A DNA stretch of 64,000 bases from Pseudodesulfovibrio sp. JC047 (GTDB taxonomy: Bacteria; Desulfobacterota; Desulfovibrionia; Desulfovibrionales; Desulfovibrionaceae), in contig NZ_WUEH01000010.1 of assembly GCF_010468615.1 (NCBI RefSeq), forward strand, positions 1-64,000. The letters run 5' to 3'. Every line of letters starts with the position of its first letter. Position 1 is the first letter of the stretch. The translations under genes and the position numbers were made by a program. The notes under the pieces are model-generated. The model was not told the DNA's origin and did no database searches. It saw only the letters and a program-made list of their open reading frames with translations. Of the stretch, positions 12,649-26,422 are shown piece by piece.

Positions 12649-14007
12649 CTATTCGTTGGAAAAAAGCTGGAATCCATTATATGATTCAGAACCGTGTTCC
12701 GCGATATCCAATCCTTTCAATTCATCCGCCTTCCCGGCCCTGAGTCCGAAAATGGCCTTGATGCCCATCATGAGCAGCAACCCGCAGCCAAAGGCCCAGA
12801 CAAAGAACGTCCCGACACCGATCAACTGTACGCCAAGCTGTGCCACACCGCCGCCGAAGAACAGTCCTCCATCGACATTGAATAGGCCGCAGGCAATGGT
12901 TCCCCAGGCACCGCAGACACCGTGAACAGAGGTGGCCCCCACCGGGTCATCGATTTTGAGCACCGTGTCGATGAACTCGATGGACAGGACCACCAGCACA
13001 CCGGCAATCGCACCGATACACACGGATGAGACCGGAGAAACAGTGGCGCATCCCGCCGTGATACCGACCAGACCGGCCAATGCACCGTTAAAGGTCATGG
13101 AGATGTCGGGTTTTCCATATCTGAGATAGGACACGGCCATGGCTCCGAGCACACCAGCACAGGCAGCGAGTGACGTATTCATGGCAATCAGTCCGATGGT
13201 GTTATCAGCCGTGGTCGTGGACCCGGCATTGAAACCGAACCATCCAAACCAGAGCAGGAAAACACCCAGACCAGCCAACGGAATGTTATGTCCGGGAATA
13301 GCCCTGGTCGAGCCGTCTTCACCATACTTGCCGAGACGAGGGCCAAGAACGATAGCTCCAGCCAAGGCAATCCATCCACCCACGGAGTGAACCACGGAAG
13401 ACCCAGCGAAATCACAGAACCCGAGCCGTTCCAACCACCCGGCACCATCATCGCCCAACCACAGTGATCCCCACGCCCAATGACCGGAAATGGGATAAAT
13501 CACCCCGGTAATCACGATTGAGACCAGGATATAGCTCGAAAACTTCGTTCGTTCGGCCATCCCACCAGACACGATCGTCGCCGCAGTGGCCGCAAACACG
13601 GACTGGAAGAACCAGAAGGTATAGGTCCACATCATGTCACCGTCACCGACGCCAGTCAGGCCAAACCCGGAGGAACCGAACACCCCACCAACGTCAAGGC
13701 CGAACATGAGCGCAAAACCGAACAGGAAAAAGATGATCGATCCCACGGAAAAATCCAGGAAGTTTTTCATCATGATATTCCCGGCGGACTTGGCGCGGGT
13801 AAACCCGGCCTCCACACAACCGAACCCGGCCTGCATCAACATCACGAGACACGCTGCGATCAGCGTCCACAGAATGTTGGCATTTGACTGAGTGAGATAT
13901 TCCACCTCTTCCGCATGGGCAAAAGACGGGGCAAAAATCGCGGCCATGACAACCGCTCCGAGCACAAGCCGTCCAGTGACATGGGTCGGGGTCTTTTTCA
14001 AAAACAT
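12649..14007 (-). CDS. amtB: Ammonium transporter
   Basis: 452 residues from ATG 14007 (MFLKKTPTHVTGRLVLGAVV), with GAGGAG upstream. The longer in-frame start at 14049 would sit between the -12 element and the likely transcript start, so it is rejected. A signal peptide (to AHAEE) precedes eleven hydrophobic helices. FSVGSIIFFLFGFALMFG, the SGGMAERTKFSSYILV segment and GGWIALAGAIVLGPRLG are Amt hallmarks. A trimeric inner-membrane ammonium channel, it is co-transcribed with glnK. Confidence 0.96.
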   Translation of the reverse strand: MFLKKTPTHVTGRLVLGAVVMAAIFAPSFAHAEEVEYLTQSNANILWTLIAACLVMLMQAGFGCVEAGFTRAKSAGNIMMKNFLDFSVGSIIFFLFGFALMFGLDVGGVFGSSGFGLTGVGDGDMMWTYTFWFFQSVFAATAATIVSGGMAERTKFSSYILVSIVITGVIYPISGHWAWGSLWLGDDGAGWLERLGFCDFAGSSVVHSVGGWIALAGAIVLGPRLGKYGEDGSTRAIPGHNIPLAGLGVFLLWFGWFGFNAGSTTTADNTIGLIAMNTSLAACAGVLGAMAVSYLRYGKPDISMTFNGALAGLVGITAGCATVSPVSSVCIGAIAGVLVVLSIEFIDTVLKIDDPVGATSVHGVCGAWGTIACGLFNVDGGLFFGGGVAQLGVQLIGVGTFFVWAFGCGLLLMMGIKAIFGLRAGKADELKGLDIAEHGSESYNGFQLFSNE

Positions 14008-14054
14008 TGGGTACTCCTCGTTTCGTAAAAATCGTTGCTCACCAAGCACCCTCT

Positions 14055-14353: not shown

Positions 14354-14359
14354 TCATTT

Positions 14360-14434
14360 TTGACTGTTTTCTTTTAAAATGCTGATATCATTGGGAATCT
14401 TTTTGTTGACAGATCGCCATTCGCTGTGTAGCTA
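14360..14434 (+). promoter_or_regulatory. Candidate promoters of the aromatic amino acid operon
   Basis: Two sigma-70-like pairs are visible: TTGACT (14360) - 17 bp - TGATAT (14383-14388), and TTGACA (14406-14411) - 17 bp - TAGCTA (14429-14434). The second has the better -35, but it would start transcription at the leader ATG, giving a leaderless message. The first leaves a 5' leader of about 47 bases. Confidence 0.5.
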
Positions 14435-14441
14435 ATAAGGC

Positions 14442-14537
14442 ATGAATTCCACAACTGTCTTTAACGCATCCTTTTCCAACTTTACCTTTTGGTATTGGTA
14501 TAGCCACGCTCGTGGTCTTGGGAGAGGTACGTTGTAG
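14442..14537 (+). CDS. Leader peptide of aromatic operon (Phe/Trp/Tyr-rich, attenuation)
   Basis: A 31-codon ORF, ATG 14442 to TAG 14535-14537. It has Phe at positions 7, 11, 14 and 16, Trp at 17 and 19, and Tyr at 18 and 20, so residues 14-20 read FTFWYWY. Such density of rare aromatic codons is the hallmark of ribosome-mediated attenuation leaders. It lies directly before a strong terminator and a twelve-gene operon making all three aromatic amino acids. Starvation for any one could stall the ribosome within 14487-14501. The ribosome site is weak: only AAGG one base before the ATG. The stop codon falls inside the upstream strand of the competing hairpin, as the classical model requires. Confidence 0.85.
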   Translation: MNSTTVFNASFSNFTFWYWYSHARGLGRGTL

Positions 14538-14575
14538 CCAGACGGTGGATACAAACTGAATACAACCTCTTCAAG
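14517..14575 (+). promoter_or_regulatory. Putative antiterminator helix of the aromatic attenuator
   Basis: CTTG (14517-14520), AGAGG (14523-14527) and TTGTA (14532-14536) can pair with CAAG (14572-14575), CCTCT (14566-14570) and TACAA (14561-14565), with a GG/T internal loop and a 4-base bulge. The helix takes the first bases of the terminator stem. A ribosome that reaches the stop codon (14535) covers its left strand; one stalled at FWYWY leaves it free. Confidence 0.6.
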
Positions 14576-14609
14576 GGCCGCGGGCATAAGCCGGCGGCCC
14601 TTGTTTTTT
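14572..14609 (+). terminator. Attenuator terminator of the aromatic operon
   Basis: CAAGGGCCGC (14572-14581) pairs with GCGGCCCTTG (14594-14603). The inner GGC/GCC pair closes an ATAA loop with one G-G mismatch. TTTTTT follows at 14604-14609. It lies 52 bases before the first structural gene. Confidence 0.93.
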
Positions 14610-14661: not shown

Positions 14662-15459
14662 ATGCACATTGGTAAAGCCATCAGGCTGGAACGAATTTTC
14701 AATCGGAATACGGGTCGGACAATCGTCATCCCCATGGATCATGGCGTCACCGTCGGTCCCATCGACGGTCTGGTCAACATGCGTGATGCCGTAGGTAAAG
14801 TGGTTGATGGCGGAGCCAACGCGGTCATCGAACACAAAGGGCTGGTTCGCTGCGGTCACCGTGCCCAAGGCAGAGACATCGGCCTCATCGTCCACCTGTC
14901 CGCGTCCACGTCCCTGTCCCCCTTCCCCAATGCGAAAACCTTGGTTGCCAGTGTGGAAGACGCGGTTCGACTCGGTGCGGACGCGGTGTCGATCCACTGC
15001 AATTTAGGTGACGAGACCGAGGCTGCCATGCTCAACGACTTTGGCAAAATGGCCTCAGACGCCGCCAATTGGGGAATGCCGCTGCTGGCCATGGTCTACG
15101 CTCGCGGTCCCAAGATCCCGAATGAATTCGACGCGAATGTGGTCGCGCATTGTGCCCGGGTCGGAACCGAACTCGGTGCGGACGTGGTCAAGGTACCGTA
15201 CACCGGCGATATAGACACCTTTGCCCATGTGTGCGACTCTTGTTGCATTCCTGTTGTTATCGCAGGTGGACCGAAGCTCGACAACACCACGGACTTCCTC
15301 CAGATGGTCCACGACTCGATCAAGGCCGGTGGCGCAGGGTTGTCCGTCGGGCGCAACGTTTTCCAACACAAGAACCCGACACGTCTGGTCGAGGCATTGA
15401 ACATGATCGTTCACGAAGACAAAACAGTGGCAGCCGCCCTCACGCATCTTAACGGATAA
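14662..15459 (+). CDS. 2-amino-3,7-dideoxy-D-threo-hept-6-ulosonate (ADTH) synthase, class I aldolase family
   Basis: 265 residues of the DeoC/FbaB-like class I aldolase family. [17 protein letters not shown] at the N-terminus, HCNLGDETE and [14 protein letters not shown] are typical of the archaeal-type enzyme. It condenses aspartate semialdehyde with a 1-deoxyfructose phosphate and thereby replaces DAHP synthase. The Schiff-base Lys is probably in [10 protein letters not shown]. The assignment over fructose-bisphosphate aldolase rests on the next gene, DHQ synthase II, and on the operon. AGGAG precedes ATG 14662. It is the first structural gene after the attenuator. Confidence 0.9.
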
Positions 15460-15471
15460 CGGTACAAAACC

Positions 15472-16455
15472 ATGAAAAACGTCATTTTCAAATCAGTCCC
15501 CTTTGACAAGCATCTCGTTACGTTGGCTCTGGAATCAGGTGTGGACGCCGTGATGGTCGAAAAGGATCAGGTCAAGACCGTTCAGGCTCTTGGCCGCGTC
15601 ACGGTCATCACTCCCGAAGACATGCCCGTGGTCGAATTGACTGAAAAAGCCGATGAAGCGACCGCCATCAAGGGAATCCGGGATGGTCAAAACGTCGTGC
15701 TCAAAAAGGGATGGGAGATCATTCCGGTCGAAAACATTCTCGCACAGGTGGAAACTCTGGCCCTGGAATGCGAATCTCTGGACCGGGCCAGACTGGCCGC
15801 CGGAATTCTGGAACGCGGCTGTGACACCGTGGTCGTCCTGCCGGAAGGTGCGGCCGACCTCAAACAGATCGTCTCGGAACTCAAACTTTCGCAGGGAACC
15901 ATGGATCTTCAAACCGCCGAAATCACCGCCATCGAACCCACCGGGTTGGGCCATCGCGTCTGTGTGGACACCATTTCGATCTTGAAAAAGGGACAGGGAA
16001 TGCTCGTGGGCAACTCCTCGGCCTTCTCTTTTCTGGTCCATGCCGAGACTGAATCCAACCCCTATGTGGCGGCGCGGCCATTTCGCATCAATGCGGGGGC
16101 GGTCCATGCCTATACCCAAATGCCGAGCGACAAAACCACCTATCTGGATGAACTCAAGGCCGGTGACGAGGTCCTGATCGTCGGGGCCGATGGAGCAACG
16201 ACCATTTCCACGGTAGGCCGGGTCAAGGTAGAAGTCCGCCCCATGTTGCTCATCAAGGCAGCCATCACCACGGACACCGGCGTCACTGAAGGACAAGTTT
16301 TCCTCCAGAACGCCGAAACCATCCGGGTCGTGGCTGACACAGGTGAACCGATCTCGGTGGTCAATCTCGCAATTGGCGACAAAATCATGGTCAAAACCGA
16401 TGAAGCTGGCCGACACTTCGGTATGCGCATCACGGAAGAAATCAAGGAAGGCTAG
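15472..16455 (+). CDS. 3-dehydroquinate synthase II (archaeal type, AroB')
   Basis: 327 residues. It oxidatively deaminates and cyclises ADTH to 3-dehydroquinate with NAD. The C-terminal half shows the family blocks TGLGHRVCVDTISILKKGQG, MLVGNSSAFSFLVHAETE and PFRINAGAVHAYTQMP. It is unrelated to classical AroB. It starts 12 bases after the ADTH synthase stop with a weak ribosome site, suggesting coupled translation. Together the two genes form the alternative entry to the shikimate pathway known from archaea and from Desulfovibrio. Confidence 0.94.
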   Translation: MKNVIFKSVPFDKHLVTLALESGVDAVMVEKDQVKTVQALGRVTVITPEDMPVVELTEKADEATAIKGIRDGQNVVLKKGWEIIPVENILAQVETLALECESLDRARLAAGILERGCDTVVVLPEGAADLKQIVSELKLSQGTMDLQTAEITAIEPTGLGHRVCVDTISILKKGQGMLVGNSSAFSFLVHAETESNPYVAARPFRINAGAVHAYTQMPSDKTTYLDELKAGDEVLIVGADGATTISTVGRVKVEVRPMLLIKAAITTDTGVTEGQVFLQNAETIRVVADTGEPISVVNLAIGDKIMVKTDEAGRHFGMRITEEIKEG

Positions 16456-16556
16456 TCCTGTTTCGATAGGAAATGATCCCGCCTTCACCGGCTCGGATCA
16501 ACGAATCGGAAACAGACGCCCGGCCCCACTGGCCGGAGCTTCATCTGGAGAAAGAC

Positions 16557-17657
16557 ATGAAAGGCACAGACAACACGAATATCCCGGACCTCGGCGAACT
16601 ACGGCAATCAATCGATTCCGTAGATCGCCAGATCGTGGATCTCCTGAACCAACGGGCCGACCTGAGCCTTGGCGTGGGGCGATACAAGGCGTCCCGGGGC
16701 GAACCGATTTACAAGCCGTTCCGTGAACAGGAAGTCATGAACAAGATCGCAGGCTCCAGTCCCGGACCACTGCCGGACAAGCACCTGCGTACCATCTATC
16801 GTGAAATCATGAGTTCATCCCGCCACCTGCAACGCCCCGAGCGCGTGGTCTATCTTGGTCCAGAAGGCACGTTTTCCTATTTCGCAGCCATCGAACACAT
16901 GGGCAGTGCCGCTGCCTTGACCCCAAAAACGAATTTCGAGGATATTTTTCGGGCCGTTGCCGAAGAAGGCGCGGAACTCGGTGTCATTCCGCTGGAAAAC
17001 ACCATTGAAGGCACCATCGGTCAGGTGGTGGACCTGTTCATGAAATACAAGGTCTATATCCAGGCCGAAGTCTTCAGCCGAATCAGTCATTCCATCATGT
17101 CCAAAGTCGAATCACTCAATGACGTGGAGGTCATCTACTCGCACCCTCAACCGTTGGGACAATGCCGGGACTGGCTCCGCACCCATCTGCCCGAGGTACC
17201 GACCATCCCTATGGAATCCACCGCCGAAGCCGCCGAAGTCGTGGCAGGGAAACAGACCGCTGCGGTCATCGGTCATGCCAAGCTGGCGGATATGCACGCC
17301 ATGAACATTCTGGCCCAATCCATCGAGGACCAACCCGACAACTGGACCCGATTCCTGATTATCGGCGCGGCCCCTTCGCTGGAAGACCAACGCGACAAGA
17401 CCACCATTCTTTTCACGCTGCCGGACAAACCCGGCGCATTGGCCCGGGTCCTGACGACGCTGGCCCTACAGGGAATCAACATGACCAAGCTTGAATCCCG
17501 CCCGTTCAAGGGAGAAAAATGGAAATATGTCTTTTTCACCGATCTCGAATGTGATTTGAGCGGAGACAGACACCAAGACGTGCTCGAAGCAATTCGCCAG
17601 CAGTGCCATACACTGCGCGTCCTCGGCACATACCCCACCCAGGAGAACAGATCATGA
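16557..17657 (+). CDS. pheA: Bifunctional chorismate mutase / prephenate dehydratase
   Basis: 366 residues from ATG 16557 (preceded by GGAG), not the longer reading. Residues 10-95 are the AroQ-type mutase (LRQSIDSVDRQIVDLLNQRA; GRYKASRGEPIY). Residues 100-285 are the dehydratase, with YLGPEGTFSYFAA, IPLENTIEGTIGQVVD and the catalytic NWTRFLII. Residues 295-365 are an ACT domain with KLESRPFKG, the phenylalanine feedback site. It commits chorismate to phenylpyruvate. Its stop overlaps aroA by ATGA. Confidence 0.96.
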   Translation: MKGTDNTNIPDLGELRQSIDSVDRQIVDLLNQRADLSLGVGRYKASRGEPIYKPFREQEVMNKIAGSSPGPLPDKHLRTIYREIMSSSRHLQRPERVVYLGPEGTFSYFAAIEHMGSAAALTPKTNFEDIFRAVAEEGAELGVIPLENTIEGTIGQVVDLFMKYKVYIQAEVFSRISHSIMSKVESLNDVEVIYSHPQPLGQCRDWLRTHLPEVPTIPMESTAEAAEVVAGKQTAAVIGHAKLADMHAMNILAQSIEDQPDNWTRFLIIGAAPSLEDQRDKTTILFTLPDKPGALARVLTTLALQGINMTKLESRPFKGEKWKYVFFTDLECDLSGDRHQDVLEAIRQQCHTLRVLGTYPTQENRS

Positions 17658-18994
17658 GCAAGGAACCGATCATCATCAATGCCCCGGCCAGCAAATCACT
17701 CTCTCACCGAACTCTTATCGCGGCCGCATTGGCCAACCGGGTTTCGGAAATATCCTCTGTGCTCGACTCCGACGACATCACCCGCACGCGCGACTGCCTC
17801 ACGGCCTGCGGCGCGACCATCGCGGAAAAGGCGGGGAATCTCGTTGTCTCGGGCATGGAATCCGGTCCCAAGGGGGGCAATGCCGACCGCAAACACAAGA
17901 AAGACGCGCCGCACGAACTGTTCATGCACGAATCCGGGACCACCTGCCGTCTGATGACCGCCGTGGCTGCTGCCGGACACGGAACCTTCCTGGTTCATGG
18001 TGCCCCCCGTATGCACGAACGCCCCATGGCCGAACTGGTCAAGGCCCTCAAAAAGCTCGGTGCCTCCTTTGAATTCAAGGAAAAGGACGGTCACCTTCCC
18101 TTTGTCATGACCTGCAAGGGATACACCGGGAAAAAAGTCGAAATTTCACTGGAAGAAAGCAGTCAATATCTGTCCGGCCTACTTTTGGGCGCACCACTGG
18201 CCTCCCACGAAACCACCATTACCGTCACCGGCAAGAAAGCGGTTTCCTGGCCATATGTGGCCCTGACCCTTCGGATCATGGAAGATTTCAAGGCCGGGTT
18301 TGACGTCCAGATCAAGGACGGCAAACAGTGGGAGTCCGTCCCATGGCGGTCCGTCAAGGCCGTCACACCGGGCACCATCCGATTCATCGTCAAACCCACC
18401 GGGTATGATTCAACGGATTATCAGGTGGAAGGCGACTGGTCCAACGCCAGCTATTTCCTGGCCGCCGGGGCCATTGGCAGACGCCCTGTTCTCATCAAGG
18501 GGCTGGCGGCGGACTCATTGCAAGGTGACCGGGCCATCATGGACATTCTCAGTCAAATGGGCGCGTCCATCAAAGTCTCTTTTGACGGCATTCTCGTGGA
18601 ACCCGGTTCCCTGCACGGCATCACCGTGGACATGGGCCGCTGCCCGGACCTAGTGCCCACGGTTGCCACGGTCGCGGCGTTCGCGTCCACACCGACCACC
18701 ATCACCAATGTGGCCCATCTGCGACTCAAGGAAACCGATCGACTGAAGGCCTGCGCACTGGAAATATCCAGAACCCAGACCCAAACGGAAATAGTGGATG
18801 ATTCGCTCATCATTCGGCCCAGCCGGGTGCCAAACGGCCACTGCATCAATTTCGACACCTATGGGGATCATCGCATGGCCATGGCCATGTCCCTGTTCCA
18901 ACTGGGTGGCATTGACGTCATTCTGGACAACCCCGGCTGCGTCAACAAATCATTCCCCGGCTTCTGGGACGAATGGAAAAAGATCATCGGATAA
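17654..18994 (+). CDS. aroA: 3-phosphoshikimate 1-carboxyvinyltransferase (EPSP synthase)
   Basis: 446 residues. It adds enolpyruvate from PEP to shikimate 3-phosphate. NAPASKSLSHRTLIAAALA carries the substrate-binding Lys and Ser. ESGTTCRLMTAVAAAG replaces the usual NAGT loop in the manner of divergent delta-proteobacterial enzymes. LRLKETDRLKA and TYGDHRMAMAMSLF are the catalytic PEP-binding blocks. A charged insertion near residue 75 (KGGNADRKHKKDAPHE) is unusual. It is preceded by AGGAG and coupled to pheA by a 4-base overlap. The intermediate pathway genes (aroC, aroD, aroE, aroK) are not in this window. Confidence 0.94.
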   Translation: MSKEPIIINAPASKSLSHRTLIAAALANRVSEISSVLDSDDITRTRDCLTACGATIAEKAGNLVVSGMESGPKGGNADRKHKKDAPHELFMHESGTTCRLMTAVAAAGHGTFLVHGAPRMHERPMAELVKALKKLGASFEFKEKDGHLPFVMTCKGYTGKKVEISLEESSQYLSGLLLGAPLASHETTITVTGKKAVSWPYVALTLRIMEDFKAGFDVQIKDGKQWESVPWRSVKAVTPGTIRFIVKPTGYDSTDYQVEGDWSNASYFLAAGAIGRRPVLIKGLAADSLQGDRAIMDILSQMGASIKVSFDGILVEPGSLHGITVDMGRCPDLVPTVATVAAFASTPTTITNVAHLRLKETDRLKACALEISRTQTQTEIVDDSLIIRPSRVPNGHCINFDTYGDHRMAMAMSLFQLGGIDVILDNPGCVNKSFPGFWDEWKKIIG

Positions 18995-18998
18995 GGTC

Positions 18999-19769
18999 AT
19001 GACCGAACCAGCAATACAGACACTCGCCATCGTGGGCGCCAGCGGCCAGATGGGGCAGGTCTTTTCACAGGCTTTTACCGATCAGGGGTGCGACGTCGTG
19101 CCCCTTGATCGCCCCTTTTCCAAAGCTGCAATCCGCGAAGCACTGACCGATTGCGACATGCTGTTGCTCAGTGTGCCGGTCACGGCCATGGATTCCGTCT
19201 TGGACCACATGACACCACACCTGAATGGACGCACCATTCTCTGTGATGTCGGTTCGGTCAAAATCCATCCCATGAAAACCATGATCCGACGATATCAGGG
19301 ACCGGTTGTGGGGACACATCCACTGTTCGGACCGATTCTTCCGGATGAATTCACTCCCAGAATCGCCATTGCCCCGGGCCGAGAAACTGACCGCGACGCT
19401 GCCTCCGCAGTCTCCCGGCTCATGCAATCCTGCGGCTATGAATGTTTTTCGACAACAGCCGAAGAACACGACCGGGCCATGGCCTTTGTCCAGGGATTGA
19501 ACTTCACGTCAACCGTGGCCTTTCTGGCCGCAGCCCGAGACGTGGACGGCATCGATAATTTCATCACCCCCTCGTTCAAACGTCGCCTCGACTCGGCGCA
19601 CAAGATGCTCACGCAGGATACGGAACTTTTTGAAACCATTTCGGAATCCAATCCGTTCCTTCAGGAAGTCAACCGCAAATTCATGGCGTATCTCAGCCTG
19701 GCCGCCGGTGGCGATCTCGATCTGCTCGCAGACCGGGCACAGTGGTGGTGGCATCACGAAACACCATAA
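18999..19769 (+). CDS. tyrA: Prephenate dehydrogenase
   Basis: 256 residues starting at ATG 18999 with AAGG just upstream, 4 bases after aroA. The Rossmann fold begins LAIVGASGQMGQVFSQAF. The catalytic region is GTHPLFGP (about residue 105), and ISESNPFLQEVNRKFM is the C-terminal helical signature. It makes 4-hydroxyphenylpyruvate (or arogenate-derived tyrosine) from prephenate. It lacks both the fused chorismate mutase of enteric TyrA and an ACT domain, so no feedback site for tyrosine is visible. A 190-base gap with a hairpin follows before trpE. Confidence 0.93.
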   Translation: MTEPAIQTLAIVGASGQMGQVFSQAFTDQGCDVVPLDRPFSKAAIREALTDCDMLLLSVPVTAMDSVLDHMTPHLNGRTILCDVGSVKIHPMKTMIRRYQGPVVGTHPLFGPILPDEFTPRIAIAPGRETDRDAASAVSRLMQSCGYECFSTTAEEHDRAMAFVQGLNFTSTVAFLAAARDVDGIDNFITPSFKRRLDSAHKMLTQDTELFETISESNPFLQEVNRKFMAYLSLAAGGDLDLLADRAQWWWHHETP

Positions 19770-19879: not shown

Positions 19880-19963
19880 ATGAAAACCGTAAGAAGATCA
19901 AGGGATGGGATGTCATTCCCCGCCCGTTACATTAACGGCATCATACCCAACAAGGAAACATGA
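19880..19963 (+). other. Possible 27-residue ORF overlapping the trpE start
   Basis: The ATG at 19880 opens a 27-codon frame whose TGA (19961-19963) overlaps the trpE ATG at 19960, a coupling geometry used elsewhere in this operon. The ribosome site is weak (GAAAG) and the peptide (MKTVRRSRDGMSFPARYING...) has one Phe, one Tyr and no Trp, so it does not look like an attenuation leader. Confidence 0.25.
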
Positions 19964-21432
19964 TGAATACAATTTCACTGACGCAGTACGGGAAATGGCT
20001 CCCGGCTGACGTCCAGACCACCATCTCCCTCTACATGGGACTGGTAGGTGACCAACCCGGTATTCTGCTGGAATCAGCAGAGGTGGATGGTCGCCTTGGT
20101 CGATACAGTCTGCTCGCCTGGGACTATCGGCTCATGCTCTTTCCCGTGGACGGCAAACTCGTGGTCGAAACCACCGACGACCGGCTCGCTCCACTCAAGG
20201 AACTCAGCGGCATGGACTACCTGTCCGGCCTCAAAAAAGCCGTCCAATACCTCTCAATCACGCAGGAGACCTCGGGCGATACATCCACGGCTATCGGACG
20301 GGATGGACTCCCCGGGTTGACTCGTGGGCTGTACGGCTATTTCGGCTACGGTGTGGCCGGAATGTTCGAACGCAAACTCACGCAGTGTTGCAAGCCCGAA
20401 GACGCCGAAGCCTGTCTGGTCCTCCCCGGTCAGATGGTCCTGTTCGACCACCTGCGCCACTCCTGCTGCTATCTGAGCCTCGACAAAGGCGCGACCCCCA
20501 TGCCCGCTCCGGTTCAATGGGGTGCGGACTTGACCGCTCCCGAGGTCGGGATGCCCACGGTTCACCCGGGCAAGGACGCATATCTGCGGAGCGTCAACCA
20601 CTGCAAGGACCTCATCGCGCAGGGCGAATGCATTCAGGTGGTGTTGTCCACCCGGTTCACCGTGCCGTTACCGGATGAACCCTTCAAAATATATCGCCGT
20701 CTCAGACAGGCCAATCCCTCACCGTTCATGTTCTACATGAAATTCCCGGACTCCCTGTCCATGGGAAAAACACGCGGGACCACCCTGCTGGGATCATCGC
20801 CCGAATTGCTGGTCCGAAGCACGGCAGGACAACTCGAAGTCCGCCCCATTGCCGGAACACGCCACAGAGGCGAAACCGAAAAGGAAGACCGCCGACTGGA
20901 AAAGGAACTGCTGGCCGATCCCAAGGAACGGGCCGAACACGTCATGCTCGTCGATCTGGGCCGCAACGACCTTGGACGCATTGCCAAACCCGGCACGGTG
21001 TCTGTCGAAAAATTCATGAATGTCGAACGGTTCTCCCATGTCATGCACCTCACATCCTATGTGGAAGGAACGCTCAAAGACGGACTGGACGGCGTGGATG
21101 TCCTCCAATCCACCTTCCCTGCCGGAACTTTGTCCGGTGCCCCGAAAATCCGTGCCATGGAAATCATCGCCGACCTCGAACCGCAAGAACGCGGGCCATA
21201 CGGCGGCTGCATCGGCTGGATGGGATTGGACGACGGCGAAGTGTCACTGGATACCGGCATCACCATTCGCTCCATGTGGATTCGAGACGGTCTGTGCCAT
21301 TGGCAAGCCGGAGCCGGTATCGTCCATGATTCCGACCCGGAATCAGAATGGATTGAATGTCACAACAAGGCGCGTGTGATGCTGGAAGTCATTTCCGGCA
21401 AGGGAGGCACCGATGTTTTTGCTGATCGATAA
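19960..21432 (+). CDS. trpE: Anthranilate synthase component I
   Basis: 490 residues. With TrpG it converts chorismate and glutamine to anthranilate. ILLESAEVDGRLGRYSLLAW holds the LLES motif of the tryptophan feedback site. The C-terminal catalytic region has PIAGTRHRGETEKEDR, HVMLVDLGRNDLGRIAKPG and FPAGTLSGAPKIRAMEIIADLE. AAGGA precedes a double ATG (19960, 19963). It overlaps trpG by 20 bases, so the two subunits are likely made in equal amounts. It is the first gene of the trp part of the operon. Confidence 0.96.
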   Translation: MMNTISLTQYGKWLPADVQTTISLYMGLVGDQPGILLESAEVDGRLGRYSLLAWDYRLMLFPVDGKLVVETTDDRLAPLKELSGMDYLSGLKKAVQYLSITQETSGDTSTAIGRDGLPGLTRGLYGYFGYGVAGMFERKLTQCCKPEDAEACLVLPGQMVLFDHLRHSCCYLSLDKGATPMPAPVQWGADLTAPEVGMPTVHPGKDAYLRSVNHCKDLIAQGECIQVVLSTRFTVPLPDEPFKIYRRLRQANPSPFMFYMKFPDSLSMGKTRGTTLLGSSPELLVRSTAGQLEVRPIAGTRHRGETEKEDRRLEKELLADPKERAEHVMLVDLGRNDLGRIAKPGTVSVEKFMNVERFSHVMHLTSYVEGTLKDGLDGVDVLQSTFPAGTLSGAPKIRAMEIIADLEPQERGPYGGCIGWMGLDDGEVSLDTGITIRSMWIRDGLCHWQAGAGIVHDSDPESEWIECHNKARVMLEVISGKGGTDVFADR

Positions 21433-21985
21433 TTTCGATTCCTTCACCTTCAATCTGGTGCAGGCCTTCCAGCAGCTCGGGGCCGACCCCACGGTCATTC
21501 GCAATGACCGGGACGAAATACTCGATCTGGCCACCAGCGGCACGCTTGAACGCGTCTGTCTGTCGCCCGGTCCCAGCACGCCGGAAAACGCAGGATTCTG
21601 TCTGGAATTTCTGGCCCGACTGCCCAAAACAGTGCCGGTCTTCGGCGTCTGCCTCGGACACCAGACCCTCGGTCATTTTGCCGGAGCACCCGTTCAACGA
21701 GCAGCCCGTATCATGCACGGCAAGACCTCGCAGGTCGTCCATGACGGCCAAGGCGTCTTCGCCGGGCTGGACTCGCCGTTCGAGGTCTGTCGATACCATT
21801 CGCTCGTGGTCCCGGCAGAAAAGGCCCCGGACATGCTTACCGTTACGGCCCGAACCCGCCAAGGGGAAATCATGGGACTCCAATACACGGACCGTCCATG
21901 GCACGGCGTCCAGTTTCACCCGGAATCCATTCTCACCCCGGACGGCCCGAAATTGCTCCAGAACTTTCTGAATATACAAGGATAA
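21413..21985 (+). CDS. trpG: Anthranilate synthase component II (glutamine amidotransferase)
   Basis: 190 residues, class I amidotransferase that feeds ammonia to TrpE. LLIDNFDSFTFNLVQAFQQL opens the protein. The nucleophile Cys is in FGVCLGHQTLGHFAG, and the His and Glu of the triad are in HGVQFHPESILTPDG. GGGAGG precedes the ATG inside trpE. It is a stand-alone TrpG, not fused to TrpD as in enterics. Four bases separate it from trpD. It might also serve para-aminobenzoate synthesis, but no pabB is present here. Confidence 0.95.
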   Translation: MFLLIDNFDSFTFNLVQAFQQLGADPTVIRNDRDEILDLATSGTLERVCLSPGPSTPENAGFCLEFLARLPKTVPVFGVCLGHQTLGHFAGAPVQRAARIMHGKTSQVVHDGQGVFAGLDSPFEVCRYHSLVVPAEKAPDMLTVTARTRQGEIMGLQYTDRPWHGVQFHPESILTPDGPKLLQNFLNIQG

Positions 21986-21989
21986 CGAT

Positions 21990-22997
21990 ATGACCATTCC
22001 TGAAATACTCGAAATCATCGCCCAACGAAAACCGCTGACCGATGCCCAGGCCGACTTCATGTTTACCGCACTGATGTCAGGCTCCATGACCGAGGCCCAA
22101 ACCGGTGCCTTTCTGATGGGGCTGCGCGTCAAGGGCGAAGACTCCACAGATCTGGCAGCCGGAGTGCGTGCCGGTGTGGCCCATGCCATCAAGATTCCCG
22201 GTTTTGACGGCACCCGCGAAGAGCCCGTGATGGATACCTGTGGCACAGGCGGCGACGGACAATGCAGTTTCAACAACTCCACGGCAGTGTCATTATTTCT
22301 GGCGGATATGGGATACACGGTCGCCAAACACGGCAACCGCGCCCTGTCGTCCTCCTGTGGCTCTGCCGATGCGCTCGAAGCCCTCGGCATTCCACTGGGC
22401 CTGACCCCGGAGCAGGCTGCTGAAGGCATGGAGAAACACCACTTCGCCTTCCTGTTCGCCCCGGCCTATCACCCGGCTTTCAAACACGTCATGCCCGTGC
22501 GCCAACAACTCGGCATCCGGACCCTGTTCAACTTCATGGGACCGTTGCTCAATCCGGCCCGTCCCTCACATCAACTCATGGGCGTTGGCGATCCTGAACG
22601 ATTGCGACTCATGGGTGAAACCCTGCTGCTGACCGGCGTGAACAGGGCACTGCTCTTTTCCGGGGCCGGGGGATTTGACGAGCTGACCACCTGGGGCGTC
22701 AACCGAGGGTACATCATCCACGACGGCGTGATGGAAAAGACCTCGGTCAACGCGCAACAGCTCGGCTTCAAACCCCATGATCCCAGAGACGTGGTGGTCA
22801 CCAGCAAGGAAGACGCAGTGGTCAAAATCAAGGAGATACTCGCGGGAGATGGTCCCCCTGCCATGATGGACATGGTCGCCCTGAATCTGGCAGGGTGCTT
22901 GCACCTACTGGACAAGGGGACCATGGCCGAATGTGCCGAACTGGCCCGAGACACCGTATACACCGGACTCACAAAAGGAATTCCGTATGTTGAATAA
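21990..22997 (+). CDS. trpD: Anthranilate phosphoribosyltransferase
   Basis: 335 residues. It transfers phosphoribosyl from PRPP to anthranilate. MDTCGTGGDGQCSFNNSTAV is the PRPP-binding GTGGD loop. AKHGNRALSSSCGSADALEALG and FLFAPAYHPAFKHVMPVR complete the active site. AAGGA precedes the start. The last 11 bases overlap trpC. It belongs to the non-fused class. Confidence 0.96.
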   Translation: MTIPEILEIIAQRKPLTDAQADFMFTALMSGSMTEAQTGAFLMGLRVKGEDSTDLAAGVRAGVAHAIKIPGFDGTREEPVMDTCGTGGDGQCSFNNSTAVSLFLADMGYTVAKHGNRALSSSCGSADALEALGIPLGLTPEQAAEGMEKHHFAFLFAPAYHPAFKHVMPVRQQLGIRTLFNFMGPLLNPARPSHQLMGVGDPERLRLMGETLLLTGVNRALLFSGAGGFDELTTWGVNRGYIIHDGVMEKTSVNAQQLGFKPHDPRDVVVTSKEDAVVKIKEILAGDGPPAMMDMVALNLAGCLHLLDKGTMAECAELARDTVYTGLTKGIPYVE

Positions 22998-23757
22998 ATT
23001 CAGAGAAGCAAAGCAACTTGAAATCGAATCCCTCCGCAAGGACTTCATGGAAGGCCGTGTGCCTGCCGTCTATCAGGGCGATCGTCCGTCTTTTGTGGAC
23101 GCCATCACAGCCAAGGGTCCCGGGGCGATCATCGCCGAATTCAAACCGGCCAGCCCCAGCAAAGGTGTCTTACGTGAAAATGCCAACCCACTGGATTTCG
23201 CAGATATCTACGCGGACAACGGTGCGGCGGCCATCTCCGTCCTCACGGAACCCCACTACTTCGGCGGCACCCCGGACTATCTGTTCATGATGAGCCAACC
23301 CGGTATCCCCTTGTTGCGCAAGGATTTCATCTTTGATCCGCTCCAGGTGGCCATGACCGCGTCCAGCCCGGCCTCTGCCGTGCTGCTCATCGCCCGCATG
23401 TGCGAAGACGCCACCCACCTGACGCAATTGGTGGAACTGGCACGGATGCCCGGCCTGAGTCCCGTGGTCGAAATATTCGACCAGGCGGACCTCGACATGG
23501 CCCGTGCAGCCGGTGCCGACATCATCCAAGTCAACAACCGCAATCTGGACACCCTCGAAACTTCGCTGGACCAAAGCCGGAACTTCATCACGCAAAAACG
23601 TGATGGTGAACACTGGATTTGTGCCAGCGGCGTGTCGAAACGGGCACAGGTCGAGGAAATGGCCGAACTCGGTTTCGACGCCATCCTCATCGGCACCTGT
23701 CTCATGGAAGCGGACAATCCTGGCGAAACCCTCGCCGAGTTGACTGGAGCACGCTAG
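22987..23757 (+). CDS. trpC: Indole-3-glycerol-phosphate synthase
   Basis: 256 residues, TIM barrel. It closes the indole ring from CdRP. IIAEFKPASPSKGVLRE contains the first catalytic Lys, ISVLTEPHYFGGTPDYL follows, PLLRKDFIFDPLQV contains the second, and IQVNNRNLDTLE is conserved. The start at ATG 22987 (MLNKFREAKQ) lies inside the end of trpD; the longer reading only extends into trpD. It is separate from TrpF, unlike the fused E. coli protein. One base is shared with the trpF GTG start. Confidence 0.95.
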   Translation: MLNKFREAKQLEIESLRKDFMEGRVPAVYQGDRPSFVDAITAKGPGAIIAEFKPASPSKGVLRENANPLDFADIYADNGAAAISVLTEPHYFGGTPDYLFMMSQPGIPLLRKDFIFDPLQVAMTASSPASAVLLIARMCEDATHLTQLVELARMPGLSPVVEIFDQADLDMARAAGADIIQVNNRNLDTLETSLDQSRNFITQKRDGEHWICASGVSKRAQVEEMAELGFDAILIGTCLMEADNPGETLAELTGAR

Positions 23758-24386
23758 TGTCACGCCCCCTGGTCAAAGTCTGCGGCATGACCCGCATGGA
23801 GGATGTCGAGCTCTGCGTCGATCTCGGCGTGGACCTGCTCGGATTCATCTTCCATCCCAAAAGCCCTCGACAGGCCGATCCCGATTTCGTGGCCTCGGTC
23901 AAAACGGGCAAGGTCACCAAGGTCGGTGTTTTCGTTGACCAAACAGCAGACGAAATCATCGAGACCATGGATCGCTGCGGTCTCCATGCAGCCCAACTGC
24001 ATGGCGGACACGACATGGACGCGTGCTGGAAAATCGGACCGGACCGGGTCATTCGGGTCTTTTGGCCCGAGGCCTACGCCTCATCCGACGATCTGCTCCG
24101 CGCGTTGGACCGATACGCAGAAGTCTGCGGCCATTTCCTTTTGGACGCAGGCAGAACAGGCCAGGGTGGCACCGGCACGACTATTGATTTTAAGACTCTG
24201 CAAGATATTGAAATACATACACCTTGGTTCCTTGCTGGCGGACTTGCACCGCACAATATCAAGGAGGCCCTGACCCTCAATTCTCCCGGAGTGGACATCA
24301 ACTCCGGCGTGGAGAGCCGTCCGGGTATCAAGGACGCATCAAAACTGCGAGAAATCCTGACGATTCTCGCTGAGGACACAGAATGA
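23757..24386 (+). CDS. trpF: Phosphoribosylanthranilate isomerase
   Basis: 209 residues, TIM barrel. It converts PRA to CdRP. LVKVCGMTRMEDVELC has the catalytic Cys. GVFVDQTADEIIETM, AAQLHGGHD and FLLDAGRTGQGGTGTTIDF (catalytic Asp) follow, and WFLAGGLAPHNIKEAL is the phosphate site. The start is GTG at 23757, sharing a base with the trpC stop, with TGGAG upstream. It overlaps trpB by ATGA. Confidence 0.94.
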   Translation: MSRPLVKVCGMTRMEDVELCVDLGVDLLGFIFHPKSPRQADPDFVASVKTGKVTKVGVFVDQTADEIIETMDRCGLHAAQLHGGHDMDACWKIGPDRVIRVFWPEAYASSDDLLRALDRYAEVCGHFLLDAGRTGQGGTGTTIDFKTLQDIEIHTPWFLAGGLAPHNIKEALTLNSPGVDINSGVESRPGIKDASKLREILTILAEDTE

Positions 24387-25546
24387 AAAAAGGATATTTT
24401 GGCGATTTTGGCGGACAGTTCATCCCGGAACTGCTCATGCCACCGCTCATAGAACTGGAAGAAGCCATGCAGACCATCCTCCCTTCCGAGGAATTCCAGA
24501 CACGGTTCATCCAGATGCTCAAGGAAAACGTTGGCCGCCCCTCGGCCCTGACATATTGCCGTCACATGTCAGAAGACCTCGGTCTGGACCTGTGGCTCAA
24601 ACGCGAGGATCTGAATCATTCGGGCGCGCACAAGATCAATAATACCCTCGGACAGGGATTGCTCGCCAAAATGATGGGCAAAGAAGTCCTGCTGGCAGAG
24701 ACCGGCGCGGGAATGCACGGCGTGGCGACCACTGTGGCCGCAGCCATGCTCGACATGAAAGCCGTCATCTACATGGGCGCGGAAGATGTCGTGCGCCAAG
24801 CCCCCAATGTCAACCGGATGCGACTCATGGGCGCGGAAATCGTGGCCGTTGAATCCGGCACCCGGACCCTCAAGGATGCCATCAACGAGGCCATGCGCCG
24901 CTGGTTGGCCGACCAGGAAAACACCCATTACTGTTTTGGCACGGCCGCCGGTCCCCATCCCTTCCCGGAACTGGTCCGCGAATTCCAGCAGGTCATTTCC
25001 AAAGAAGCCCGTCAGCAATTCATGGACCGCACCGACGGCGCACTGCCAGACGTGGTCGTGGCCTGTGTGGGCGGCGGGTCCAACGCCATCGGCATGTTCC
25101 ACCATTTCGTGCCGGATGCCTCTGTCAAACTGATCGGCGTGGAAGCCGCTGGAACCGGCGAACCCGGGTGTGACAACTCCGCGCCGCTCAATCTCGGTTC
25201 AAGCGGCGTATTGCACGGCATGAAAACCAAGTTGTTGCAGACGGACGCAGGACAGATCATGCCCTCACATTCCGTGGCCCCGGGGCTGGATTATCCCGGC
25301 GTCGGCCCGGAACACGCCCATTTGCAGGACATTGGTCGCGCCCAATACGTCACGATCAACGACAATCAGGCCCTGAATGCGTTCGTGACCCTGTCCCGCC
25401 GTGAAGGCATCATTCCGGCGTTGGAATCCTCCCACGCCGTGGCCTATGCCATCGAGAACAAGGACGCCCTCAAAGGCCAATCCGTGCTCGTAAATCTGTC
25501 AGGACGTGGCGACAAGGATCTCGGTATCCTCGACCGCATTTTATAA
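24383..25546 (+). CDS. trpB: Tryptophan synthase beta chain
   Basis: 387 residues. This PLP enzyme condenses indole with serine. The PLP Lys lies in LNHSGAHKINNTLGQGLLAK, and the phosphate-binding loop is VACVGGGSNAIGMFHHF. GRPSALTYCRHMSEDLG and GAGMHGVATTVAAAM mark the canonical TrpB1 class that channels indole from TrpA. Its start overlaps trpF by 4 bases. A 114-base gap with a small hairpin separates it from trpA, the largest spacing within the trp part after trpE. Confidence 0.97.
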   Translation: MKKGYFGDFGGQFIPELLMPPLIELEEAMQTILPSEEFQTRFIQMLKENVGRPSALTYCRHMSEDLGLDLWLKREDLNHSGAHKINNTLGQGLLAKMMGKEVLLAETGAGMHGVATTVAAAMLDMKAVIYMGAEDVVRQAPNVNRMRLMGAEIVAVESGTRTLKDAINEAMRRWLADQENTHYCFGTAAGPHPFPELVREFQQVISKEARQQFMDRTDGALPDVVVACVGGGSNAIGMFHHFVPDASVKLIGVEAAGTGEPGCDNSAPLNLGSSGVLHGMKTKLLQTDAGQIMPSHSVAPGLDYPGVGPEHAHLQDIGRAQYVTINDNQALNAFVTLSRREGIIPALESSHAVAYAIENKDALKGQSVLVNLSGRGDKDLGILDRIL

Positions 25547-25660
25547 AAATACGGGCAGCCCGGCCTCCCGCTCAGCGACGGGACAACGGCACCCCTTCGA
25601 ACTTTTTCTGGCACACGACGGCTTCATGAGCCGCGTGCAGCCTGTGAATGGAGCAAGAAT

Positions 25661-26422
25661 ATGAATCATATGCACATGAAAATAAACGATGCAACCCAAC
25701 ACGGCAAAGTCGGACTCATCCCCTTCCTTCCCGCCGGATTTCCGAACCGGGAACAATTCTGGAAGGAACTGGAGGCACTGGACAAGGCCGGAGCCGCCGT
25801 CATTGAAATCGGGATGCCCTTTTCCGATCCAGTAGCCGACGGTCCGGTGGTGGAAAAGGCCTCGCTTCGCAGCTTGGCTGACGGCATCGATCTCAACTGG
25901 ATTTTTACGGAACTCAAGGCGCGCAAAGGACAATTCAATGCCGCGCTCCTGCTCATGGGCTATCTGAACCCGGTCTATCAATACGGACTGGAGGCCTTTG
26001 GTGCGGACTGTGAAGCCGCCGGAATATCTGGATTGATTCTCGCCGATATCCCGCACGAGGAGTCCCAATTCGTCAAGGACGCCATCGAACCGCACGGTGT
26101 GGCCCTGGTGCCCCTGATCGGACTGAACACGAGCCGGGAACGGATGCAACTCTACGCCGAAAACGCCTCGGGATTCTGCTATTTCGTCTCCGTCCTCGGC
26201 ACCACGGGCCAGCAGAAGGCCCTGCCCGACCGTATCAAAGAAAAACTCGCAGAAGCCAAAGCGGTCTTCGACATCCCGATCGCCCTTGGCTTCGGCATTG
26301 AAAATCCCGCCCAACTCGCCCGATTTGACGGACTGATGGACGCCGCCGTGTTCGGTTCCGCCCTCATCAGTCACATCGAATCCGGCAAATCAAGTGCTGA
26401 ATTCATGCAGCCCTGGGCATAA
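25661..26422 (+). CDS. trpA: Tryptophan synthase alpha chain
   Basis: 253 residues, TIM barrel. It cleaves indole-glycerol phosphate to indole, which passes to TrpB. The catalytic Glu and Asp are in VIEIGMPFSDPVADGPVVEK. LMGYLNPVYQYGLEAF, FCYFVSVLGTTGQQK and IALGFGIENPAQLARFDGLM (phosphate site) are present. The start is ATG 25661 after GGAG; alternative in-frame ATGs lie 9 and 15 bases later. It is the last gene of the aromatic operon, closed by the terminator at 26442. Confidence 0.96.
   Translation: MNHMHMKINDATQHGKVGLIPFLPAGFPNREQFWKELEALDKAGAAVIEIGMPFSDPVADGPVVEKASLRSLADGIDLNWIFTELKARKGQFNAALLLMGYLNPVYQYGLEAFGADCEAAGISGLILADIPHEESQFVKDAIEPHGVALVPLIGLNTSRERMQLYAENASGFCYFVSVLGTTGQQKALPDRIKEKLAEAKAVFDIPIALGFGIENPAQLARFDGLMDAAVFGSALISHIESGKSSAEFMQPWA

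Follow-up and report, generated by a model that had tools for sequence, protein, structure and literature searches.

Introduction

The E. coli pheA, pheST, and trp leaders are ribosome-mediated attenuators with control codons for one amino acid each. The ilvGMEDA, ilvBN, and thrABC leaders carry codons of several end products and provide multi-input attenuation for branched-chain and Thr/Ile operons. Attenuation of ilvGMEDA and ilvBN is named in the excerpted text of PMC1183508, and the S. aureus ilv leader has Ile and Leu codons (PMC5794164, excerpt); in 2013 a survey put the Rfam amino acid attenuators of that time at His, Leu, Thr, and Trp (PMC3766115, excerpt). Closer to the aromatic pathway, a putative attenuator from Merino's database was placed in 2005 before the D. 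vulgaris aroA'-aroB'-aroQ.pheA-aroF-tyrA-[trp] supraoperon (PMC1173090, Table 7, excerpt). The uORFC-13-1 motif, found before aroF, joins a uORF with at least one Phe codon to a terminator (PMC8632094, excerpt), and the leader transcript of Sinorhizobium meliloti trpL has its 5' end at the leader ORF's ATG (PMC7298713, excerpt).

The leader described here lies in a 64,000-nucleotide stretch of DNA from Pseudodesulfovibrio sp. JC047, which is called the window. Like the E. coli pheA, pheST, and trp leaders, it combines a short control-codon ORF, a mutually exclusive antiterminator and terminator, and related genes downstream; unlike them, it interleaves three codon sets and is probably leaderless. 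It shares codons for several products with the ilvGMEDA, ilvBN, and thrABC leaders, whose products are branched-chain amino acids or Thr/Ile, not aromatics. The D. vulgaris attenuator precedes the same operon in a relative, but the excerpted text of PMC1173090 gives neither a leader peptide nor a sensed amino acid, and the word "leader" is absent from it. Like the window leader, uORFC-13-1 precedes the first common-pathway gene with a uORF and a terminator; it differs in that a DAHP synthase gene lies downstream, and several amino-acid inputs are not described in the excerpted text of PMC8632094. S. meliloti trpL shares the transcript start at the ATG, which is predicted in the window, and differs as a 14-residue trp leader of an alphaproteobacterium. 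A three-input aromatic attenuator was not found in the literature searched, most subscription papers lying outside that search, and the excerpts of PMC545781, PMC1262725, PMC2965389, PMC3766115, PMC5343134, and PMC5764234 contain nothing on the window leader. What is new in the system proposed here is attenuation by three aromatic amino acids together, the rewriting of the control codons as gene content changes, and the leaderless form.

The leader ORF and its operon

The features of the locus, with the evidence for each, are as follows.

14406–14434, forward strand: predicted sigma-70 promoter, TTGACA (14406–14411), 17-nt spacer, TAGCTA (14429–14434), read by eye
14442–14537, forward strand: leader peptide ORF, MNSTTVFNASFSNFTFWYWYSHARGLGRGTL (ORF reading, relatives, frame bias of aromatic codons)
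14481–14501, forward strand: control codons F-T-F-W-Y-W-Y, codons 14–20 (reading, conservation, folding model)
14508–14528, forward strand: antiterminator 5' strand (GCTCGTGGTCTT, one unpaired G, GGAGAGGT), also encoding ARGLGRG (fold, core helix in 62 sequences)
14565–14585, forward strand: antiterminator 3' strand, overlapping the terminator 5' arm (folding, core helix count)
14572–14609, forward strand: intrinsic terminator, hairpin 14572–14603 and T-run 14604–14609 of six T (folding, -28.2 kcal/mol; pair changes)
14662–15459, forward strand: first operon gene, ADH synthase (aroA'-type aldolase; NCBIfam TIGR01949 above cut-off)
15472–16455, forward strand: 3-dehydroquinate synthase II (aroB'; profile search)
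16473–19769, forward strand: pheA (chorismate mutase/prephenate dehydratase), aroA, tyrA (profile search, ORF coordinates)
19960–26422, forward strand: trpE, trpG, trpD, trpC, trpF, trpB, trpA (trpE and trpB by profile, the rest by order and similarity)

The leader ORF runs from the ATG at 14442 to the TAG at 14535–14537 and comprises 31 codons, with Phe at codons 7, 11, 14, and 16, Trp at 17 and 19, and Tyr at 18 and 20. Re-reading the ORF gave exactly the counts of a preliminary description made from the letters alone, which had reported four Phe, two Trp, and two Tyr codons within the first 20; the same description sited the ORF before a terminator and an operon for all three aromatic amino acids, and the hairpin and the gene profiles agree with it. 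ADH synthase denotes 2-amino-3,7-dideoxy-D-threo-hept-6-ulosonate synthase and DHQS II denotes 3-dehydroquinate synthase II. The profile search covered seven downstream genes, and trpG, trpD, trpC, trpF, and trpA were named from order and similarity. For prephenate dehydrogenase and trpE the best NCBIfam matches lay below cut-off; Pfam PDH_N was above cut-off for prephenate dehydrogenase.

When the 450-nt stretch ahead of the aldolase gene was dinucleotide-shuffled 2000 times, a single shuffle contained an ATG ORF with an aromatic density at least that of the leader ORF (six F/W/Y in eight codons). A census of the window, in which nested starts were counted separately, found 1002 ATG ORFs of 12–50 codons, and three of these reach six aromatic codons in eight, namely the leader ORF and two nested starts of a single minus-strand ORF at 14357. 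The leader ORF is real, and a chance origin is improbable. Covariance searches of the window against Rfam returned two tRNAs and nothing else at threshold; the leader reached the gathering threshold of none of the leader families (Trp, His, Leu, Thr, and others), nor that of the T-box model. The minus-strand small ORF at 14357 (MMTCGHFFWLFFGWCC...), aromatic-dense and 5' of the minus-strand gene 12649–14049, likely owes its aromatic density to chance. Gene 12649–14049 itself looks ammonium-transporter-like by eye.

Conservation in relatives

An alignment of the second operon gene served as query and brought up 152 relatives. The best 80 were retained; most are titled Desulfovibrionales, and some just Deltaproteobacteria, Proteobacteria, or Pseudomonadota MAGs. 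Leaders could be read at 78 of these 80 loci. Seventy-six were curated in full; two more (L055 and L097) are partial at contig ends, still visible, and stand outside the 76, and L077 and L109 were not assessable. Because leader ORFs and starts were partly curated by hand, and because several scripts ordered ORFs by their aromatic or Trp content, the weight rests on the shuffle controls: an ATG ORF with at least six aromatic codons in eight was present in 72/76 relatives, versus 3/1520 shuffles and 1/1156 real control segments. Across the last eight run codons of 68 distinct peptides, the window's included, 446 of 544 codons are aromatic in frame, as compared with 96 and 106 in the other two frames, and this bias is evidence that the leader ORFs are translated.

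With run positions numbered backwards from the last aromatic codon (-1), positions -6 to -1 are 74–97% aromatic (84–97% at -5 to -1), and F, Y, and W each occur at every one of them; positions -23 to -11 are 3–18% aromatic. Replacement of F, Y, and W by one another within a run that remains aromatic favors codon sensing. The preliminary description had expected aromatic codons to be kept while flanking codons drift, and had named a loss of the aromatic codons in close relatives as evidence against it. The run is conserved and the upstream codons do drift; the post-run codons (SHARGLGRG) do not, because they are held by RNA pairing. All three aromatic residues are held by 66 of the 76 curated leaders, and the remaining 10 hold F and Y. 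Within the window's genus, leader model R1 matches 21/21 genomes, and the main leader holds F, Y, and W in all 21 (the L235 stretch ends before its first gene).

Terminator and antiterminator

Folding of the RNA from 14504 to 14590, without the terminator 3' arm, gives an antiterminator of 12 + 8 pairs at -39.0 kcal/mol. It pairs 14508–14528 with 14565–14585 and thereby consumes the terminator 5' arm, so the two structures are mutually exclusive. A terminator is present in 77/77 leaders folded (median -25 kcal/mol), and the antiterminator reaches z < -2 in 75 of the 77. In an RNA alignment (A2) of 62 of the 70 distinct regions, 96.3% of cells in the ten-pair antiterminator core are paired, versus 34.5–42.8% when the strands are slid by 1–3 columns.

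Compensatory change is seen in both structures. Seven of the 11 terminator pairs have changes on both sides among the 62 sequences; in the antiterminator core this holds for only one pair of ten, between columns 46 and 123 (window positions 14511 and 14582), the others being invariant or changed on one side. This pair is U-A in 37 sequences, C-G in 18, U-G in four, and A-U in one, with two gaps. Since column 123 is unpaired in the terminator, its covariation with column 46 supports the antiterminator by itself, and it accounts for the peptide reading ARG in some species versus ACG in others. Of three independent pairs on the tree, a mean of 2.8 show the two columns changing in the same direction, and none shows them changing in opposite directions. 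A protector hairpin at 14504–14515 was considered as a general part and rejected, since just 66.1% of its cells are paired.

We then placed a model ribosome codon by codon, assuming that the first free base lies 13 nt beyond the first A-site nucleotide. The median modeled probability of the antiterminator in the 62 sequences stays at 1.00 as long as the A site is at least two codons short of the last aromatic codon; it is 0.89 one codon short, 0.60 on that codon, 0.05 one codon past it, and 0 further on. In this model the switch point is at the last aromatic codon, and the aromatic run ends where stalling would stop being useful. A modeled ribosome at the control codons allows the antiterminator and one at the stop codon blocks it. 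Modeled stalls as far as 12 codons upstream still let the antiterminator form; the folding model gave no support to the view that a Trp codon distant from the run end would be idle. The locus thus holds the parts of an attenuator: an aromatic-codon ORF, whose translation is indicated by frame bias, a terminator, and an exclusive antiterminator that overlaps the ORF.

Promoter spacing and the leader start

From the position of the predicted promoter, transcription would be expected to start at about 14441–14442, that is, at the leader ATG. A consensus promoter scan did not list the 14406–14434 site, and TAGCTA is without the final T; conserved spacing backs the reading by eye: 49 of 76 relatives have a TTGAC box 29–34 nt ahead of the leader ATG. 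The window leader, with 30 nt between its TTGACA-type box and the ATG, belongs to this group, in which a Shine-Dalgarno-like word is absent from all 49 relatives. Of the other 27 relatives, 25 have a distance of 45–80 nt and in two a box was not found; a Shine-Dalgarno-like word is present in 15 of the 27. A single change on the tree separates the loci with 29–34 nt (leaderless-type) from the rest.

Based on this box spacing, the window leader ORF is probably leaderless. The leaderless state looks derived because leaders from outside the family keep 41–68 nt between box and ATG (23 of 25 leaders, those where a box was found) and Shine-Dalgarno-like words (18/25). Seven Phe-run leaders of the kind described below were also measured and have 30–31 nt and no Shine-Dalgarno-like word (L132 being measured from the first ATG). 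The single split between leadered and leaderless loci offers a clean setting for comparative work on leaderless initiation in attenuators.

Control codons and trp genes

To relate codon content to gene content, the 76 curated leaders were divided into 40 whose operons include trp genes, 23 taken as without them, and 13 that could not be assigned and do not enter the trp counts. All 40 leaders with trp genes in the operon have a Trp codon, versus 13/23 without. F, Y, and W occur together within the last five run codons in 36/40 versus 3/23, within the last six in 39/40 versus 5/23, and within the last seven in 39/40 versus 11/23, these window lengths having been chosen after the data were looked at. 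One of the 23 (L071) was counted as trp-less by its likeness to L069, its contig ending before the trpE position; without it the counts are 12/22 for a Trp codon and 5/22 for all three residues in the last six. Four others (L098, L101, L105, and L107) were assigned on at most 6.1 kb after DHQS, trpE being elsewhere or not found, and removing these as well as L071 leaves 10/18 and 4/18. In the DHQS protein tree the trp state changes just three times, so the large counts come mostly from one clade and represent far fewer than 63 independent cases, and the paired comparison of Trp codons with trp genes, which has three pairs, cannot reach significance.

We sought trpE in 19 genomes of the 23 trp-less loci (all except those of L071, L086, L094, and L110). 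Fifteen gave strong scores, one a weak score (L112), and three none (L061, L083, and L105). In the 300 nt before trpE of these split-off trp operons, an ORF with WW is present at 15/15 loci versus 21/1500 shuffles, and one with WWW at 9/15 loci versus 0/1500; T-tailed inverted repeats are visible there by eye. The leaders of the three loci with no trpE match, whose assemblies may be incomplete, have no Trp codon. The leader of L112 keeps one, and that of L084 keeps FYFWYF although its trp genes sit elsewhere under a WW leader. Since the antiterminator is modeled to form for upstream stalls, the 13 of 23 trp-less leaders with a Trp codon may still sense Trp.

Outside the family, DHQS II was found in 75/247 genomes of the phylum. 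From 36 stretches of genomes labeled only "same phylum", 25 leaders were taken forward; those left out had no clear leader (L185, L189, L194, L199, L203, L207, L208, L210, and L214), lay at a contig edge (L201), or gave a weak candidate (L212). Among further genomes, L170 has a leader reading FFYGFYFF, and no clear leader was seen in L160, L169, and L171. The 25 leaders are rich in Phe and Tyr, e.g., NYYFYFWYYWF and YFYFYYFF, and all 25 are followed by a T-tailed hairpin (-18.4 to -27.9 kcal/mol). Of the 24 without trp genes in their stretch, 15 have a Trp codon, which in three of them stands only ahead of the run; L215, the single leader with trp genes in its stretch, has one too. Trp codons are therefore not strictly tied to trp genes. 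A strict rule under which Trp codons would require downstream trp genes was discarded, since it fails outside the family (15/24) and in part inside (13/23 keep one). Judged from these counts, the codon set of the leader tends to follow gene content, imperfectly; an operon feeding the common pathway may well sense Trp regardless of trp genes.

Proposed mechanism and alternatives

From the computed parts, their conservation, the exclusive structures, and the codon–gene tendency, we infer stalling, termination, leaderless initiation, and a response to each amino acid, and we consider it highly probable that the leader is a ribosome-mediated transcription attenuator with three inputs (Phe, Tyr, and Trp). 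Transcription would begin on or beside the ATG; a ribosome would load on the leaderless end and trail RNA polymerase. A shortage of Phe-, Tyr-, or Trp-tRNA would stall it within F-T-F-W-Y-W-Y, leaving the ARGLGRG codons free to pair with the terminator 5' arm; the resulting antiterminator would permit read-through into the operon. With all three plentiful, the ribosome would reach the stop codon and cover the antiterminator strand, and the terminator would form. The logic would be that of an OR gate, in which any single aromatic shortage suffices. The preliminary description had proposed one stall site integrating all three aromatic pools; the attenuation anatomy and a codon set that tends to follow the genes support this, and read-through on limitation of each pool would be its expected consequence. 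One element would then tune an operon that runs from the common pathway to all three products.

The best-surviving alternative is that one amino acid is mainly sensed, e.g., Trp through WYW, or Phe, with the other aromatic codons as bystanders. The window leader has just two Trp and two Tyr codons, and two Trp codons are enough in the E. coli trp leader. On the other hand, all three residues recur in the last six codons of 39/40 trp-bearing operons with their order and identity reshuffled, and one-residue runs do evolve where one input is expected: W before split-off trpE, and F before an aldolase paralog and symporter genes (see below). We regard sensing of mainly one amino acid as improbable. 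Still less likely is nascent-peptide arrest, in which the peptide would stall the ribosome on binding a free aromatic amino acid. A short aromatic-rich peptide would suit it, and TnaC is a Trp-responsive precedent; arrest peptides, however, are known to need fixed residues, and residue identity is not conserved here, F, Y, and W being exchanged for one another at positions -6 to -1. RNA pairing explains the more conserved residues after the run (A-R/C-G), and with them the Arg/Cys swap linked to column 123. That an ordinary terminator follows a chance ORF, with the operon controlled otherwise, e.g., by a repressor (which could also act in addition to attenuation), is scarcely credible against the shuffle result for the window, leaders at 78 relatives, frame-specific codons, and antiterminator covariation, and the neighboring gene 12649–14049 reads the opposite way, so the terminator at 14572–14609 does not serve that gene.

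Leaders at duplicated and paralogous genes

Attenuation with three inputs in the window may be one state of a broader system. We lean slightly toward a phylum-wide aromatic OR gate that can be rewritten, its control codons changing as genes leave, join, or duplicate, with a leaderless form in one branch. The series would comprise F+Y+W with trp genes, F+Y in many leaders without them, W-runs at split-off trp operons, and F-runs at the aldolase paralog and symporter; it also takes in the two differing leaders on the two aldolase copies of Mailhella-type operons. Such a series would be natural material on the selection of control codons, and in the leaderless branch initiation and attenuation would share the first nucleotides of the transcript.

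Four of the 23 trp-less loci (L096, L104, L107, and L110, Mailhella by title) have two aldolase copies before DHQS. The counted Phe/Tyr leader lies between the copies, and the first copy has its own Trp-bearing leader, FGCWCYAYYF or SFGWWYP, read at three of these loci, with L119 standing in for L107. The trp operon adjoins in opposite orientation and carries a WWW leader of its own. These four are among the 10 trp-less loci whose counted leader has no Trp codon, and without them a Trp codon is present in 13/19 and all three residues in the last six codons in 5/19. The Mailhella loci weaken the Trp-codon count but add a case of rewriting, in which the leaders of one enzyme's two copies differ.

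The window's genome has two further aldolase copies. On contig C7 (71471–71581, minus strand; L002, L132, L173), a Phe-run leader ending RFFCAFIFRNACGHGVR, with a terminator, precedes a lone ADH synthase paralog; the third ADH synthase paralog of this genome (L003, L133) has no such leader. Phe-run leaders, several of which include one or two Tyr codons, stand in 10 of 20 paralog stretches taken from the window's genome and related ones; none was found in the other 10 (L133–L137, L143–L146, and L151).

Searched with model R1, the window's genome gave a third strong copy, at 57.5 bits, on contig C8 (77920–78044; L174). This leader, MNTSKNRLRFFFFMDFRFFSGAYGLGVSV (Phe-run RFFFFMDFRFF), precedes genes for a symporter small accessory protein and a sodium:solute symporter. 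Elsewhere in the genus, comparable leaders stand before genes of this kind (L233, L236, L237, L239, L241, L242, and L243); for L238 the automatic reading returned none. Phe-run leaders in this position lead to the prediction that the sodium:solute symporter is tied to phenylalanine supply, and suggest that the symporter behind the contig C8 leader is a Phe-regulated transporter. If the OR-gate code holds, leader codons would predict the inputs of unassigned genes, this Phe-linked sodium symporter being one example, and may point to the inputs or substrates of transporters and isoenzymes.

Two-leader operons of the Mailhella type were also seen at L115, L118, and L119. At L053 and L064, tandem ADH synthase copies lie ~40–50 nt apart, with a mixed leader before the first.
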